A DNA stretch of 64,000 bases from Brevibacterium yomogidense (lineage in GTDB: Bacteria > Actinomycetota > Actinomycetes > Actinomycetales > Brevibacteriaceae): NCBI RefSeq assembly GCF_900163715.1, contig NZ_FWFF01000001.1, forward strand, positions 310,001 to 374,000. Reading direction: 5' to 3'. Of this stretch, positions 5,808 to 53,254 are shown in pieces. A program made the translations under genes and the position numbers. A model generated the notes under the pieces. That model was not told the DNA's origin, did not search any database, and worked only from the letters and a program-made list of their open reading frames with translations. Every line of letters starts with the position of its first letter. Within the stretch, counting starts at the first letter, position 1.

Positions 5808-5871
5808 GCGGTACCTCCTCGATCGTCATTGATCAGATACGGCTCGGCTCCGATTCTGCTCGAGCCTGCTC

Positions 5872-5940
5872 GAACCACCAGCTTTCATCAGACCACACAC
5901 CTTGTTTCCTATGCGGCCTGATGAAAGGTGGTGGCTCGCG
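5872..5940. repeat. 69-bp dispersed palindromic repeat, copy A
   Basis: Arms of about 16 bp (CCACCAGCTTTCATCA and TGATGAAAGGTGGTGG, one mismatch) flank a loop of about 30 nt. A near-identical copy lies at 28979-29047, with the loop core TTGTTTCCTATGCGG unchanged. Both copies start 63 nt beyond the stop codon of a minus-strand gene. The element could be a REP-like element, a terminator, or both. Confidence 0.8.
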
Positions 5941-42137: not shown

Positions 42138-42219
42138 GGCCGTGCGCGGGCCGGGGCTCTCGTCCGTCCCCTCCGGCCCCTCCCCACCCTCCCCTCCTCA
42201 CCGTCCCGTCCTCGCCGAG

Positions 42220-42281
42220 ACGCCGGTTACCGGTACGAAACACCGTGCCAGGGCGCGGCGTTTCGTGTCGGTAGCCGGCGT
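42220..42281. repeat. 62-bp palindromic repeat, copy 1 (left of AbiEi-like gene)
   Basis: Imperfect arms of 26 bp (starting ACGCCGGTTACCGGTACG, ending GTAGCCGGCGT) enclose a short loop. A copy with about 85 percent identity in the same orientation lies at 43392-43453, on the other side of the AbiEi-like gene. Confidence 0.8.
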
Positions 42282-42367
42282 GTGGGCACCTGTAGGAATC
42301 GACGAGGCGCGACGTGCCCACCCGAGGTCACAATCACGTGCACGCTCTATGCTCTATCCACAGGGAT

Positions 42368-43375
42368 ATGAGGGCTCTTGAACCTCTTCTGTCTGCGCGC
42401 GACCGTCGGTGCATGGACGTCATCATCACTCGAGCGGACCTTCACCGCGCGGGGTTCTCACGGTCTCTGGTCACCGATGCACTCCGCTGCTGTCTCATAC
42501 GAGTCCGACGCGGTCTGTACGTCGTCCGGCCAGACTGCCCACGCAGATCGCATGCCGCACTGGCACTGCTGAAGCAGCGCTCAACCGGGGACCTCATCGA
42601 TCTCGATGTGAAAGGGCTCCGTGGTCATGCAGCGAGGCTGCGGATCCTCACGCGGACATACGTGGACGACCTCGCCGAGGACTGCACTCTGTCCCACGTC
42701 AGCGCCGCGCTCCTGTGGGGTCTGCCATTCACCCGACCGATCCAGGGTCGTGCTGAAGCCGTGCGCCCTGGGAGGTCGCGCGGTTACAAGCAGGTCATCA
42801 TCCGACAGCGCGTCCTCCACCCCAGCGAAGCGACAGAGATCGACGGACTGCCTGTCACGACTGTGCGCCGGACGCTCCTGGATGTCGCCCTCGACTATCC
42901 GTTGGACGTCTCCGTGCCGATGATCGACCATGCCCTGCGCAAGGAGCTGGTGTCCACGGAGGACATCGCCGAACTGGCCAGGTCCATCCGCCGGCGCCGT
43001 GGTTCGGTGCGGGCTCGGACGGCGTTCTCTCTGGGAGACCGTGCGCGAGAGTCCCCCGCGGAGTCCATCTGCGCAGTCCGCTTCCACGAGCACGGCATCG
43101 CGGGATTCGTGCCGCAGGCCACCTTCGGTACGAAGGACGATGGCTTCATCGCTCGCGTCGACTTCCTCCATCGCGGAGCGAAGATCATCGTCGAGGTGAA
43201 TGGGGAGATCAAGTACACCGACGGAGAGACAGGCGCCGCGCGTGCCCGCCGCGAACGCCGGCAGGACTACCAGCTGCGGAACCTCGGCTACCGCGTCTAC
43301 CAGCTCACGTGGGCCGACCTGTTCTCGCCGTCGACGTTCCACGACATCAAGCACGCCGTCTCTCGCGCCGGCTGA
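42368..43375 (+). CDS. AbiEi-like protein (type IV antitoxin domain with DUF559-like C-terminus)
   Basis: The 335-residue protein starts with a helix-turn-helix segment as in AbiEi antitoxins (ITRADLHRAGFSRSLVTDAL, then RRGLYVV). It continues with TLSHVSAALLWGLPF and ends with a Vsr/DUF559-like nuclease-fold part (DFLHRGAKIIVEVNGEIKY, then RRQDYQLRNLGYRVYQLTWADL). Such proteins are common in actinomycetes and mostly of unknown role; AbiEi itself represses and counters the toxin AbiEii, but no AbiEii-like gene is adjacent. ATG 42368 follows AGGGA closely; ATG 42413 is the alternative. The gene is bracketed by two related 62-bp palindromes. Confidence 0.75.
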   Translation: MRALEPLLSARDRRCMDVIITRADLHRAGFSRSLVTDALRCCLIRVRRGLYVVRPDCPRRSHAALALLKQRSTGDLIDLDVKGLRGHAARLRILTRTYVDDLAEDCTLSHVSAALLWGLPFTRPIQGRAEAVRPGRSRGYKQVIIRQRVLHPSEATEIDGLPVTTVRRTLLDVALDYPLDVSVPMIDHALRKELVSTEDIAELARSIRRRRGSVRARTAFSLGDRARESPAESICAVRFHEHGIAGFVPQATFGTKDDGFIARVDFLHRGAKIIVEVNGEIKYTDGETGAARARRERRQDYQLRNLGYRVYQLTWADLFSPSTFHDIKHAVSRAG

Positions 43376-43391
43376 GCACCAGCGATACGAA

Positions 43392-43453
43392 ACACCGGTT
43401 ACCGGTATGAAACACCGTGCCAGAGCGCGGCGTTTGATACCGGTAACCGGCGT
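43392..43453. repeat. 62-bp palindromic repeat, copy 2 (right of AbiEi-like gene)
   Basis: The arms (starting ACACCGGTTACCGGTATG, ending GGTAACCGGCGT) match in 23 of 26 positions. It starts 17 nt after the AbiEi-like stop codon. It shares the central ACCGTGCCAG-GCGCGGCGTTT with copy 1. Further right (43519-43580) two 27-28 bp imperfect direct repeats around GCTCAGGGGTCGG are also present. Confidence 0.8.
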
Positions 43454-43574
43454 CTCGAGGGGATACGGGGGCGCGGAAGGCGCAGCGTAGTGAGCGGCGG
43501 CCAGGAGCGCTCGGCGGCTGTCAGCGCTCAGGGGTCGGGGGCACCCGGCAGTGCTCAGGGGTCGGCAGCGCCCG

Positions 43575-48666: not shown

Positions 48667-49383
48667 ATGCGTATGCGACGCCTCCTCGAGGCTGAACGGG
48701 ACGAGCTGGGCGAGGCCCTGTCGACCCACCGCACCGGGGTCAGCGGGCAGGCACTGCTCCTCATCGCCGGCATGTGGGCAGTCGTCACCGTGCTGTTCGT
48801 CCTGCACCCCTTCATGACTCAGGCCGGAGTCATCGTCAATTCCGCCATCATCGCCGTCGTCTGCGTCGTGCTGCTGTTCGTCGTGCTCACCGCGGAGACG
48901 CTCGTCGTCTGCGAGAAGGGGCTCGCAGTGGGGGCGACCATCCCCCTCCGTCCCCTCTTCGTGATCCGGTACGAGCAGATCGTTCCCGGGTCCCTCGTGC
49001 CGGTGACCCGCGCGCAGCGGTACGCCGCGACGACGAAGCCTCGCGGCCGCTCCTCATCGGTGCGCGTCGATATCGGCGCAACGCAGGGGATCCACTTCGT
49101 CGGGCCGGAGATCCAGCCCGCCACCCGTCCCCGCACCCGCACTGCGCCGCTCACCTCGACCGCTCCCCGCGCCGTCGACGGGCGCGTCATCTGGTTCGCG
49201 TCGACGGGGAAGACCCCGCCCTCCGCCGTCACCGCGCAGATCGCGCAGGCGGCGCGTCGCCGAGGCCTGCACGCCCTGGCGGACGCGACGGACGCGGCAC
49301 CCGCCCGGGAACTGACGAAGAATCCCGCGGATCGCCACTCCCTGCTGCCCGGCTACCCGCCCGTCAGCCCCGACTTCCGCTGA
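48667..49383 (+). CDS. Membrane protein of unknown function
   Basis: The 238-residue protein has two hydrophobic segments in the first 80 residues (LLLIAGMWAVVTVLFVL, and IIAVVCVVLLFVVLTAETLVV). A cytoplasmic part that may be PH-like begins CEKGLAVGATIPLRPLFVIRYEQIVPG, cited here in pieces (VVCEKGLAVG, FVIRYEQIVPG). No family recognised. It overlaps the convergent selB gene by 20 bp at the 3' end. Confidence 0.65.
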   Translation: MRMRRLLEAERDELGEALSTHRTGVSGQALLLIAGMWAVVTVLFVLHPFMTQAGVIVNSAIIAVVCVVLLFVVLTAETLVVCEKGLAVGATIPLRPLFVIRYEQIVPGSLVPVTRAQRYAATTKPRGRSSSVRVDIGATQGIHFVGPEIQPATRPRTRTAPLTSTAPRAVDGRVIWFASTGKTPPSAVTAQIAQAARRRGLHALADATDAAPARELTKNPADRHSLLPGYPPVSPDFR

Positions 49384-51493
49384 CCGGCTCGCCGGCGGCC
49401 TCCCGGTGGCCGACGATCTCCCGGTGCCCGGCGTCCACCCGCCGCGTCCACCCACGGGAATCCAGGTGCTCCAGCAGCGGGATCACGGTCCTCCGCGTCG
49501 TGTCGAGTGCCTGCCGTGCCTCACTCGTAGTGAACGGCTGCTCCAAATCGGACAGCACCCGCATCGCCCGCGCCGGAGCCTGCGGTCCCAGCACGATGCT
49601 GTCGCCCTGACCTGCGGTTCCACCGCGCGCACCCGCTCCCCCGCGAGCATCCAGACCGCCCAAGCGGATCAGCCTGCCCTGTGCCTCCGCCGCCGCGATC
49701 TCCCGCGGTCCCAGCTGCAGACGGTCCAGGACCCGGGCCTCCGGCGCCCGGAACGGGCTGCGCGCCCACTCCTCCTCGAGTTCCCAGATCGCCGGTTCCG
49801 CGGCCCCCATGCTGCGCACCGCATCCGCAGAGCGGATCCGACCCGCCTCGACGACGAGTCCGGCCTTCCGCACGATCGCGGTCAGCAGCGCCGAGGTCGC
49901 CCGCGCCGCCTGCTGCCCGTCACCACTCCTCGCCTCGCCCGAGGCCCGCCGGCCGCCCGTCACCCGGTCCGCTGCGCCGTCGCCCGCCGACCGGTCGGCC
50001 CCCGCGCCGCCGCCGAGGTCCGGCAGACCGAGGCGATCCACCGCCGCCTTGCCGGTCAGTCCGGGGGACAGCGGGTCCGCAGCGTGATCGGCCGTGACCG
50101 CGTCCCGCAGCATCTGCGCCCAGACGTCGAGCCGCTCCGCATCCACCAGCAGGTCACGCACCAGGATGACTCCGCTCGGCAATCCGGCTGAGCCCGCTTC
50201 GCGGTCGTCACCACCGCGTCTCTCCGATCCACGACCCTCCTCAGGTGGGACCGATCGGGCGGCGTCACCTCCACGCCCTTCCCCCGGCACGGCCACGCCC
50301 AGGGAGGTCAGCACGGCGACCGGCACGGCGCCTCGGCGGCGGACTTCGTGGACGAGGTCGCCTTCAGCACTCATCCCGGCCAGCGTCTCCGCCCGACGCC
50401 GACCGTCGCCGCGCCGCGCCAGCTCCGGCGGATCGACGTCGAGCACCTGCACTCCCGCGCGCACCGCGCGACTGCCCGTGGACCGCAGCAGGATCCGGTC
50501 GCCCACAGTGAGCGGCAGAGGCCTGGCCAGGGCGAGGCGGGCGTGCTCGGCACCCAGCGGCCGCAGCCGCGCCTGCACGGCGGCGGTGCCCACGTGGACC
50601 GCCAGCTCCCGCGGCGCATCCTCGAAGTCCTCGCCTGTCATCCTGCGCACGTCGACGGTGTCGGTGAGCGACCAGGCTCCGGGCGTCAGCAACACGTCGC
50701 CGCGCCCGAGGTCGTCTGCACCGATACCGCGCAGATTCACTGCCGCGCGGGTCACCGGCGTCACTGCGTCCACGGACTCGTCATGGCTCTGCAGCCCGCG
50801 GATCGTCACCGTCGCACGGGCCTTCTCGCGGACCTTCTCACCTGCGATGACGAGTGTGTCGTCCGGCTTCAGCACCCCGGCTCCGAGCGTGCCGGTCACC
50901 ACCGTCCCGGCGCCGGAGATGCTGAAGGCCCGGTCGATCCACATCCGCACGCGCGCACCGGTGTCCGGCTCAGGCACCTCCGCGAGCACGCGATCGAGCG
51001 CGCCCCGCAGCGCGTCGAGCCCCTCCCCCGTGGTGCCGGAGACCGCGATCGCCTCCGCATCGGCGAGGCCAGTCCCTGCGAGCTCCGTGCGGGACCGGGC
51101 GACGACCTCGGGAACGGAGTCCGGGGCGAGGTCCATCCGGGTCACGACGAGCAGGCCCCGCCGGATGCCCAGCGCCGCGATCGCGTCGCGGTGATCGTCC
51201 GACTGCGGCATCCAGCCCTCATCGGCGGCGACGACGAAGAGCACGATCGGCGCGGGGCCGACGCCGGCGAGCATGTTGCCCAGGAAGCGCTCGTGGCCCG
51301 GCACGTCGACGAAGGACACCTCGCGGCCGCTGGGCAGCCGCGTCCACGCGAAGCCCAGGTCGATCGTGAGGCCGCGCCGCTTCTCCTCGTCCCACCGGTC
51401 CGGCTCGATGCCCGTGAGCGCTCTCACCAGCGTCGACTTACCGTGATCCACATGCCCGGCCGTCGCGATGACGAACGAACCCGCACGCGTCAT
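49364..51493 (-). CDS. selB: Selenocysteine-specific translation elongation factor SelB
   Basis: The 709-residue protein begins with the EF-Tu-like GTPase: G1 GHVDHGKST (residues 13-21), the SelB switch RGLTIDLGFAW, G3 DVPGHERFL, and TRMD as G4. The second domain carries FSISGAGTVVTGT. C-terminal winged-helix domains should bind the SECIS hairpin in the mRNA. SelB brings Sec-tRNA to in-frame UGA codons. A long Gly/Ala/Arg-rich insertion around residues 390-530 makes it longer than E. coli SelB. Its start overlaps the selA stop by 4 nt. The presence of selA, selC, selD and formate dehydrogenase genes nearby supports a working system. Confidence 0.95.
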   Translation of the reverse strand: MTRAGSFVIATAGHVDHGKSTLVRALTGIEPDRWDEEKRRGLTIDLGFAWTRLPSGREVSFVDVPGHERFLGNMLAGVGPAPIVLFVVAADEGWMPQSDDHRDAIAALGIRRGLLVVTRMDLAPDSVPEVVARSRTELAGTGLADAEAIAVSGTTGEGLDALRGALDRVLAEVPEPDTGARVRMWIDRAFSISGAGTVVTGTLGAGVLKPDDTLVIAGEKVREKARATVTIRGLQSHDESVDAVTPVTRAAVNLRGIGADDLGRGDVLLTPGAWSLTDTVDVRRMTGEDFEDAPRELAVHVGTAAVQARLRPLGAEHARLALARPLPLTVGDRILLRSTGSRAVRAGVQVLDVDPPELARRGDGRRRAETLAGMSAEGDLVHEVRRRGAVPVAVLTSLGVAVPGEGRGGDAARSVPPEEGRGSERRGGDDREAGSAGLPSGVILVRDLLVDAERLDVWAQMLRDAVTADHAADPLSPGLTGKAAVDRLGLPDLGGGAGADRSAGDGAADRVTGGRRASGEARSGDGQQAARATSALLTAIVRKAGLVVEAGRIRSADAVRSMGAAEPAIWELEEEWARSPFRAPEARVLDRLQLGPREIAAAEAQGRLIRLGGLDARGGAGARGGTAGQGDSIVLGPQAPARAMRVLSDLEQPFTTSEARQALDTTRRTVIPLLEHLDSRGWTRRVDAGHREIVGHREAAGEPVSGSRG

Positions 51494-52962: not shown

Positions 52963-53057
52963 TGGCGGAGGCGGACGGGAATCGAACCCGCCAAGCCCAG
53001 ATACTGGGCTTCGCCGGTTTTGAAGACCGGGACGACCACCAGGACGCGGACGCCTCC
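52963..53057 (-). tRNA. selC: tRNA-Sec (anticodon TCA)
   Basis: The 95-nt sequence on the minus strand has a long acceptor stem (GGAGGCG pairing with CGCCTCC), a T arm with GGTTCGATTCC, an extended variable arm (AAGCCCAG/CTGGGCTT) and a TCA anticodon at 53021-53023. The CCA end is encoded (ending at 52963). Length, long variable arm and UGA-reading anticodon identify selenocysteine tRNA. It lies 28 nt before selA. Confidence 0.95.
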
Positions 53058-53163
53058 GCTCGCGAATCTATCAGGGGTCACGCCCGGGCAGCAGCGCCTG
53101 CGGCAGTTCGCACCGAGGAGCCGCGGGTCGAGGCGTCGAATGCCGAAGATCGACGCTCCGAAT

Positions 53164-53211
53164 GCTCAACATTCGAGTGATTCTGGGGTGGAAATGGCTC
53201 GGATGTTGAGC
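53164..53211. repeat. 14-bp inverted repeat upstream of the TIGR01777 epimerase gene
   Basis: GCTCAACATTCGAG and CTCGGATGTTGAGC pair in 13 of 14 positions around a 20-nt loop, 44 nt before the epimerase start and 107 nt from the tRNA-Sec 5' end. It could be an operator or a hairpin. Confidence 0.5.
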
Positions 53212-53254
53212 TTTCGAACCGCCGGACGGTCCGCCGCACCCGTAGGCTCGCCTC

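Follow-up and report, generated by a model that had tools for sequence, protein, structure and literature searches.

A family of genes that encode an AbiEi-like part fused to a Vsr-like nuclease is associated, across the genus Brevibacterium, with palindromes that flank its members, recur at dispersed places in the genomes and are specific to gene lineages; this association is well supported. We read gene and palindromes as a cognate pair, a partnership like that of REPs and RAYTs but with an unrelated nuclease, and give this reading a probability of roughly 0.6. It draws on the flank tests, the co-occurrence of the gene with palindrome copy number, occupied and empty sites, the geometry of half-sites, the protein fold, and the absence of Y1_Tnp. 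The gene described first lies in a 64-kb stretch of a Brevibacterium yomogidense contig, here called the window. The genome of the window is G000; G-numbers denote the 57 Brevibacterium genomes compared, and L-numbers denote family loci.

The window gene occupies 42368..43375 on the plus strand and encodes 335 residues; GTG at 42314 is an alternative open start, and the ATG at 42368 is likelier. The gene stands between an upstream palindrome (42216..42281, plus strand), whose arm repeats the motif CGAGAC/CGAAAC 20 nt apart, and a 70-nt downstream palindrome (43388..43457, plus strand). An earlier note on this DNA had described an AbiEi-like gene between two similar palindromes, and both the likeness (42216-42281 versus 43388-43453, 86% identity over 66 nt) and the layout, which exceeds chance, were borne out. 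The direct orientation given to the two copies agrees with their register but is weakly defined, because each copy is near-palindromic (direct score 43.5, inverted 31.0). The spacing of 86 nt from the upstream copy to the ATG stands, and the downstream copy begins 12 nt past the stop, or 16 nt for its 62-nt core, where 17 had been stated. Folded as single-stranded DNA, both palindromes beat 200 of 200 dinucleotide shuffles (z -5.1 and -6.9). A hairpin score of 16 is reached in the window by the downstream copy only, and a looser setting yields four long palindromes, namely the bracketing pair and those at 5871 and 53159. The latter (53159-53216) is imperfect and differs in sequence from the pair; the former (5871-5938) is a dispersed copy of another palindrome family, copies of which bracket the paralogue G000:C19:37116-38219 plus a small open frame (L075 1345-1392, 3308-3353). 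Apart from a selenocysteine tRNA (52967-53057, minus strand, an RNA family match), no known RNA family was found in the 64 kb at gathering thresholds. The nearby frame at 49364-51493 resembles a GTP-binding elongation factor, which we take to be SelB. The two neighbors of the gene match NMT1-like and glutamine-amidotransferase families, and no AbiEii toxin gene lies beside it. The proposal of an antitoxin-type protein without a toxin is therefore correct as to the missing toxin gene, but the protein is more than an antitoxin, since it carries a Vsr-like nuclease domain.

The AlphaFold2 model of the window protein (from an input of 45 window and locus proteins) has a pLDDT of 90.2 and a pTM of 0.87. 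In this model, the AbiEi-antitoxin-like region (residues 15-224; 42410..43039, plus strand) matches the AbiEi antitoxin 6y8q with a Z score of 9.9 over 167 residues (rmsd 7.3), and the best Foldseek match of the model is Rv2827c (1zel, E 2.2e-4). The PADLOC AbiEi profile recognizes the protein with an E value of 1.9e-14, and Pfam AbiEi_1 gives only 0.13. Residues 82-227 also resemble MenT-type nucleotidyltransferases (MenT1 8an5, Z 8.8, rmsd 3.5); DNA binding may thus not be the only role of the AbiEi part, a point against the cognate-pair reading. The second domain (residues 228-335; 43049..43372, plus strand) matches 3hrl (Z 12.2), I-Bth0305I (3r3p, Z 11.9), and Vsr (1cw0, Z 11.2) in the model. 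Across 45 aligned members, C41, C42, and C57 of the AbiEi-like region and E232, D265, E276, and K282 of the nuclease domain are invariant; the three cysteines, together with the nearly invariant H62, lie near the N-terminal part and could form a metal site. The window protein is unnamed in Pfam, where DUF559 matches 14 and MTES_1575 12 of 45 members, and no NCBIfam profile matched the five family members compared. Members occur in 52 of the 57 Brevibacterium genomes and relatives in 101 of 396 genomes of the order; a scan of named genomes returned eight family loci, all from Brevibacterium. Among 20 loci viewed by eye outside the genus, bracketing seems present at L302 and L308 and weak at L296 and L310. 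A paralogue in the window genome (G000:C6:244526-245446, 45% identity) contains an internal TGA and is possibly a broken copy.

In all palindrome searches at most 16 candidates per genome were scored, and places are half of the two-strand match counts. The window palindrome has five full copies in G000, the bracketing pair and those at C6:163434, C7:68698, and C11:111594; the last three each lie between convergent genes, as called by a crude gene caller. Shorter or decayed matches are found at C11:231725 and C5:28951, and beyond G000 the palindrome matched in one of the 57 genomes, at a single weak place in G015. The relative in G055 (about 55% identity) is bracketed by another palindrome, which has six places there, two of them bracketing the gene, and none in the 56 other genomes; one of the four dispersed copies falls within a script-called open frame. 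A third palindrome brackets the relative in G015 (63%) and has at least 13 full places (best 16 of 33 candidates scored), of which two bracket the gene and one more stands about 2 kb away. Palindromes of this third type also occur in G000 and other genomes. Those in G000 (C11:231813, C4:387680, C22:51899, C22:51553, and C6:280683) have no bracketed cognate gene that we saw, and 25 nt separate the one at C11:231813 from a decayed member of the window family.

For the genus-wide tests, the 89 family loci were the highest-ranking matches rather than a random sample, and 85 of them have full flanks; the controls were 333 genes from 464 kb, in 20 regions without a family gene at E 1e-5. Long palindromes stand on both sides of the gene at 17/85 family loci versus 4/333 control genes (p 1e-9), and three of the four control cases involve L151-type copies. 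Upstream palindromes were found at 26/85 loci versus 13/333 controls, and downstream ones at 28/85 versus 27/333. When flanks were compared directly, free of any hairpin search, upstream and downstream flanks of the same gene were alike (score at least 25) in 46 of 85 cases, whereas this score was reached by none of 152 pairings of one family gene with another in its genome. The remaining 39 of 85 lack a strong flank repeat in this test, and an orthologous group comprising L055, L056, L058, and others is without bracketing palindromes; both weigh against the cognate-pair reading. A previous flank test, set against random pairs that included some close relatives, placed 28/85 above the 99th percentile. 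At L199 the flanking direct repeats measure 125 nt and are longer than the palindrome they contain. The condition under which the earlier note would have given up its cassette, a common intergenic element without preference for the gene, describes the palindrome in part: its copies are indeed scattered between genes, yet with a strong preference for its gene family, and a repeat indifferent to the gene was rejected on the contrast in own-flank likeness. Flank likeness also depends on how closely two genes are related, with 1/3140 pairs alike at 25-55% protein identity versus 88/422 above (eight pairs below 25% were left unbinned) and a Mantel r of 0.52 reached in 0 of 999 permutations; by eye, palindrome class tracks clade on the protein tree.

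In the two palindrome classes compared genus-wide, copy number follows the cognate gene. The L151-type palindrome matched in 26/57 genomes, 17 of them with at least 16 places (best 16 of 35-91 candidates scored), and a gene of the L151 type (at least about 64% identity) is present in 19/57; 18 of these 19 genes are bracketed on both sides and one upstream only. The palindrome has about 11 places or more in every one of the 19 genomes with the gene, whereas 9 or more occur in only 2 of the other 38, G014 (at least 16) and G017 (about 9), with 1-4 places in five more and none in 31. Fisher's test gives a p of 3e-13, which overstates independence because the species are related. G014, with many places and no gene of 64% or more, counts against the cognate-pair reading. 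The L170-type palindrome occupies at least five places in 9/57 genomes, and in every one of these a copy adjoins a family gene; nine further genomes have 1-3 places.

The dispersed places themselves were compared between genomes (the site table holds 14 of 19 matches, those of at least 84% identity that extend to the ends of the gene). Two L151-type sites flank one ATPase-like gene, named by reading, and were followed in 14 genomes. At the downstream site the palindrome is present in five genomes, the site is empty in seven, and two are not comparable; at the upstream site the palindrome is present in six and not in eight. The distance from stop to anchor is 89-105 nt at occupied sites, versus 23-28 nt at empty sites in six genomes and 65 nt in the seventh, so that an occupied site exceeds an empty one by about 60-80 nt. 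In G024 the stop codon of the preceding gene lies within the upstream palindrome. All six genomes with occupied sites beside the ATPase-like gene have an L151-type gene; G002 and G047, where the gene type is present at 65% and both tested sites are without the palindrome, count against the cognate-pair reading. Among the 20 listed L151-type copies (L209 was filtered out, and L220-L233 are the best-scoring copies), 19 are no more than 50 nt from the 3' end of a gene, compared with 1349 of 4689 sampled intergenic positions (29%). This preference would also fit terminators and in that respect weighs against a cognate pair.

The 24 representative palindromes measure 54-76 nt, and many of unrelated sequence share a direct repeat within the arm at a spacing of 19-20 nt. 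At least seven of nine positions repeat in 15 of 36 arms when the offset is 19 nt (1.1% in shuffles), in 4 of 36 when it is 20 nt, and in at most one arm at any other offset; the arms come two per palindrome, and some representatives are related. Several classes, including L151 and L170, are without this repeat. A spacing of about two helical turns between half-sites would suit binding by an oligomer to double-stranded DNA. Changes on both sides of the stem are seen at several positions among 49 distinct L151-type copies; the count of pairs, with 1246 of 1323 paired, is biased upward since the copies were found as hairpins.

The small cassette of the earlier note is not supported as a unit that moves freely in general, because shared chromosomal loci house most of the family: 81 of 89 have one flank or both in common with another family locus, and 13 locus groups covering 76 of 89 loci have both flanks in common. 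With the window neighborhood, G055 shares a GntR-type regulator (85%) and a dehydrogenase-like gene named by reading (90%), G015 an amidotransferase-like gene (90%), and G037 and G038 an NMT1-like gene (76-77%). The order is GntR, NMT1, gene in G000; gene, NMT1 in G037 and G038; and GntR, gene in G055. Because these neighbors are common while order and palindromes differ, the window gene kept its neighborhood, with local rearrangement, as the adjoining palindromes turned over; a local shift of the gene itself is possible, since the order of its neighbors differs. At one locus, at least four palindrome classes (assigned by eye) are found across species. The sister species G016 and G017 are 98-99% identical at two other loci, and here G017 agrees with G004 at 97-100% over the left flank and the whole palindrome-gene-palindrome unit; just past the right palindrome this identity falls to 81-94%, and the match of G017 there is to G016, at 93-100%. 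A recent exchange of the unit at a fixed locus was thus caught in G017, as a single case. About nine L151-type places remain in this genome, as would be the case if dispersed copies survive the replacement of their gene.

Such an exchange is also what homing-like drive of alleles at a fixed locus would produce, in which rival alleles would be cut at or near the palindromes, the unit would be copied by homologous recombination, and dispersed copies would be by-products. The four or more classes at one locus fit this explanation, as does a nuclease fold closest to Vsr and to the homing endonuclease I-Bth0305I, whose target is reported to reach nearly 60 bp in an excerpt of PMC3943268. We consider it unlikely, while ranking it first among the alternatives: the many dispersed copies are unexplained by drive alone, and the donor tract of the one exchange takes in the left flank, for which ordinary recombination could suffice. 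Less probable still, in our view, is that the protein is an autoregulator or a binder of nucleoid type, with sites that would flank the gene and lie elsewhere by chance and a nuclease domain that would be vestigial or otherwise used. An excerpt of PMC3985639 describes binding of AbiEi to its own promoter at two 23-bp inverted repeats, and half-sites spaced 19-20 nt fit a protein on duplex DNA; but a position downstream of the gene, or at the 3' end of an unrelated one, would be poor for an operator, the invariant E232, D265, E276, and K282 speak against a vestigial domain, and the added length of occupied sites is not explained. Ordinary bidirectional terminators, alike through chance or recombination, would suit the 3'-end preference but are very improbable, as lineage-matched two-sided repeats, co-occurrence with the cognate gene, and the 19-nt half-site repeat would all go unexplained and two-sided palindromes are so rare at control genes, mostly as L151-type copies.

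In the cognate-pair reading, the AbiEi-like part would form an oligomer bound to the repeated half-sites, cutting there or at 3'-end sites would fall to the Vsr-like domain, and repair would copy the palindrome into new sites and keep the copies alike. The gene would mostly stay at its locus, with an occasional swap between species that includes both palindromes.

REP/RAYT systems are similar in that the gene lies between two palindromes of its own (as in the window, G055, G015, and nearly all L151-type genes), extragenic copies are dispersed, palindrome class tracks gene lineage, and palindromes can outlast a missing gene. They differ in that the enzyme here is AbiEi-like plus Vsr-like and not a Y1 (HUH) transposase, and most palindromes measure 54-76 nt, with each arm of many containing two half-sites. 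REPs are described in an excerpt of PMC3733652 as short (20-40 bp) with a GTAG or CGTC tag; among the 24 representatives, viewed by eye, a GTAG(T) end is found in the L151 class only. Y1_Tnp (PF01797) was detected in 0 of 57 Brevibacterium genomes and in 5 of 14 control rings, and a RAYT or IS200-type origin was rejected on its absence from the 57. The AbiE type IV toxin-antitoxin system shares the AbiEi-like fold and profile matches, and its AbiEi is known to bind inverted repeats; here, in contrast, there is no adjoining AbiEii gene, a nuclease domain is added, and repeats are also found downstream and dispersed. With the EDxHD/Vsr-like homing endonuclease I-Bth0305I, for which the long target is reported, the family shares the nuclease fold, but it differs in its free-standing gene, its other DNA-binding part, and its dispersed palindromes. 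In the open-access papers searched, we found no DUF559/Vsr-like genes tied to dispersed palindromes, and such a tie is likewise absent from the excerpts of PMC3733652, PMC3985639, PMC2817692, and PMC3943268.

The evidence points to a partnership of enzyme and small mobile repeat of a kind so far undescribed. We give even odds to the broader proposal that there is a second, independently evolved class of small mobile palindromes, spread not by Y1 transposases but by AbiEi-Vsr fusion nucleases, with several specific gene-palindrome pairs per genome and reaching other genera of the order. To our knowledge, the spread of short palindromes in bacterial genomes is poorly understood, REPs included. 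If the proposal is true, a second, unrelated enzyme with palindromes of its own would represent convergence, dozens of natural enzyme-site pairs would become available for decoding specificity, and a common protein family that is unnamed in curated libraries would gain a candidate function.
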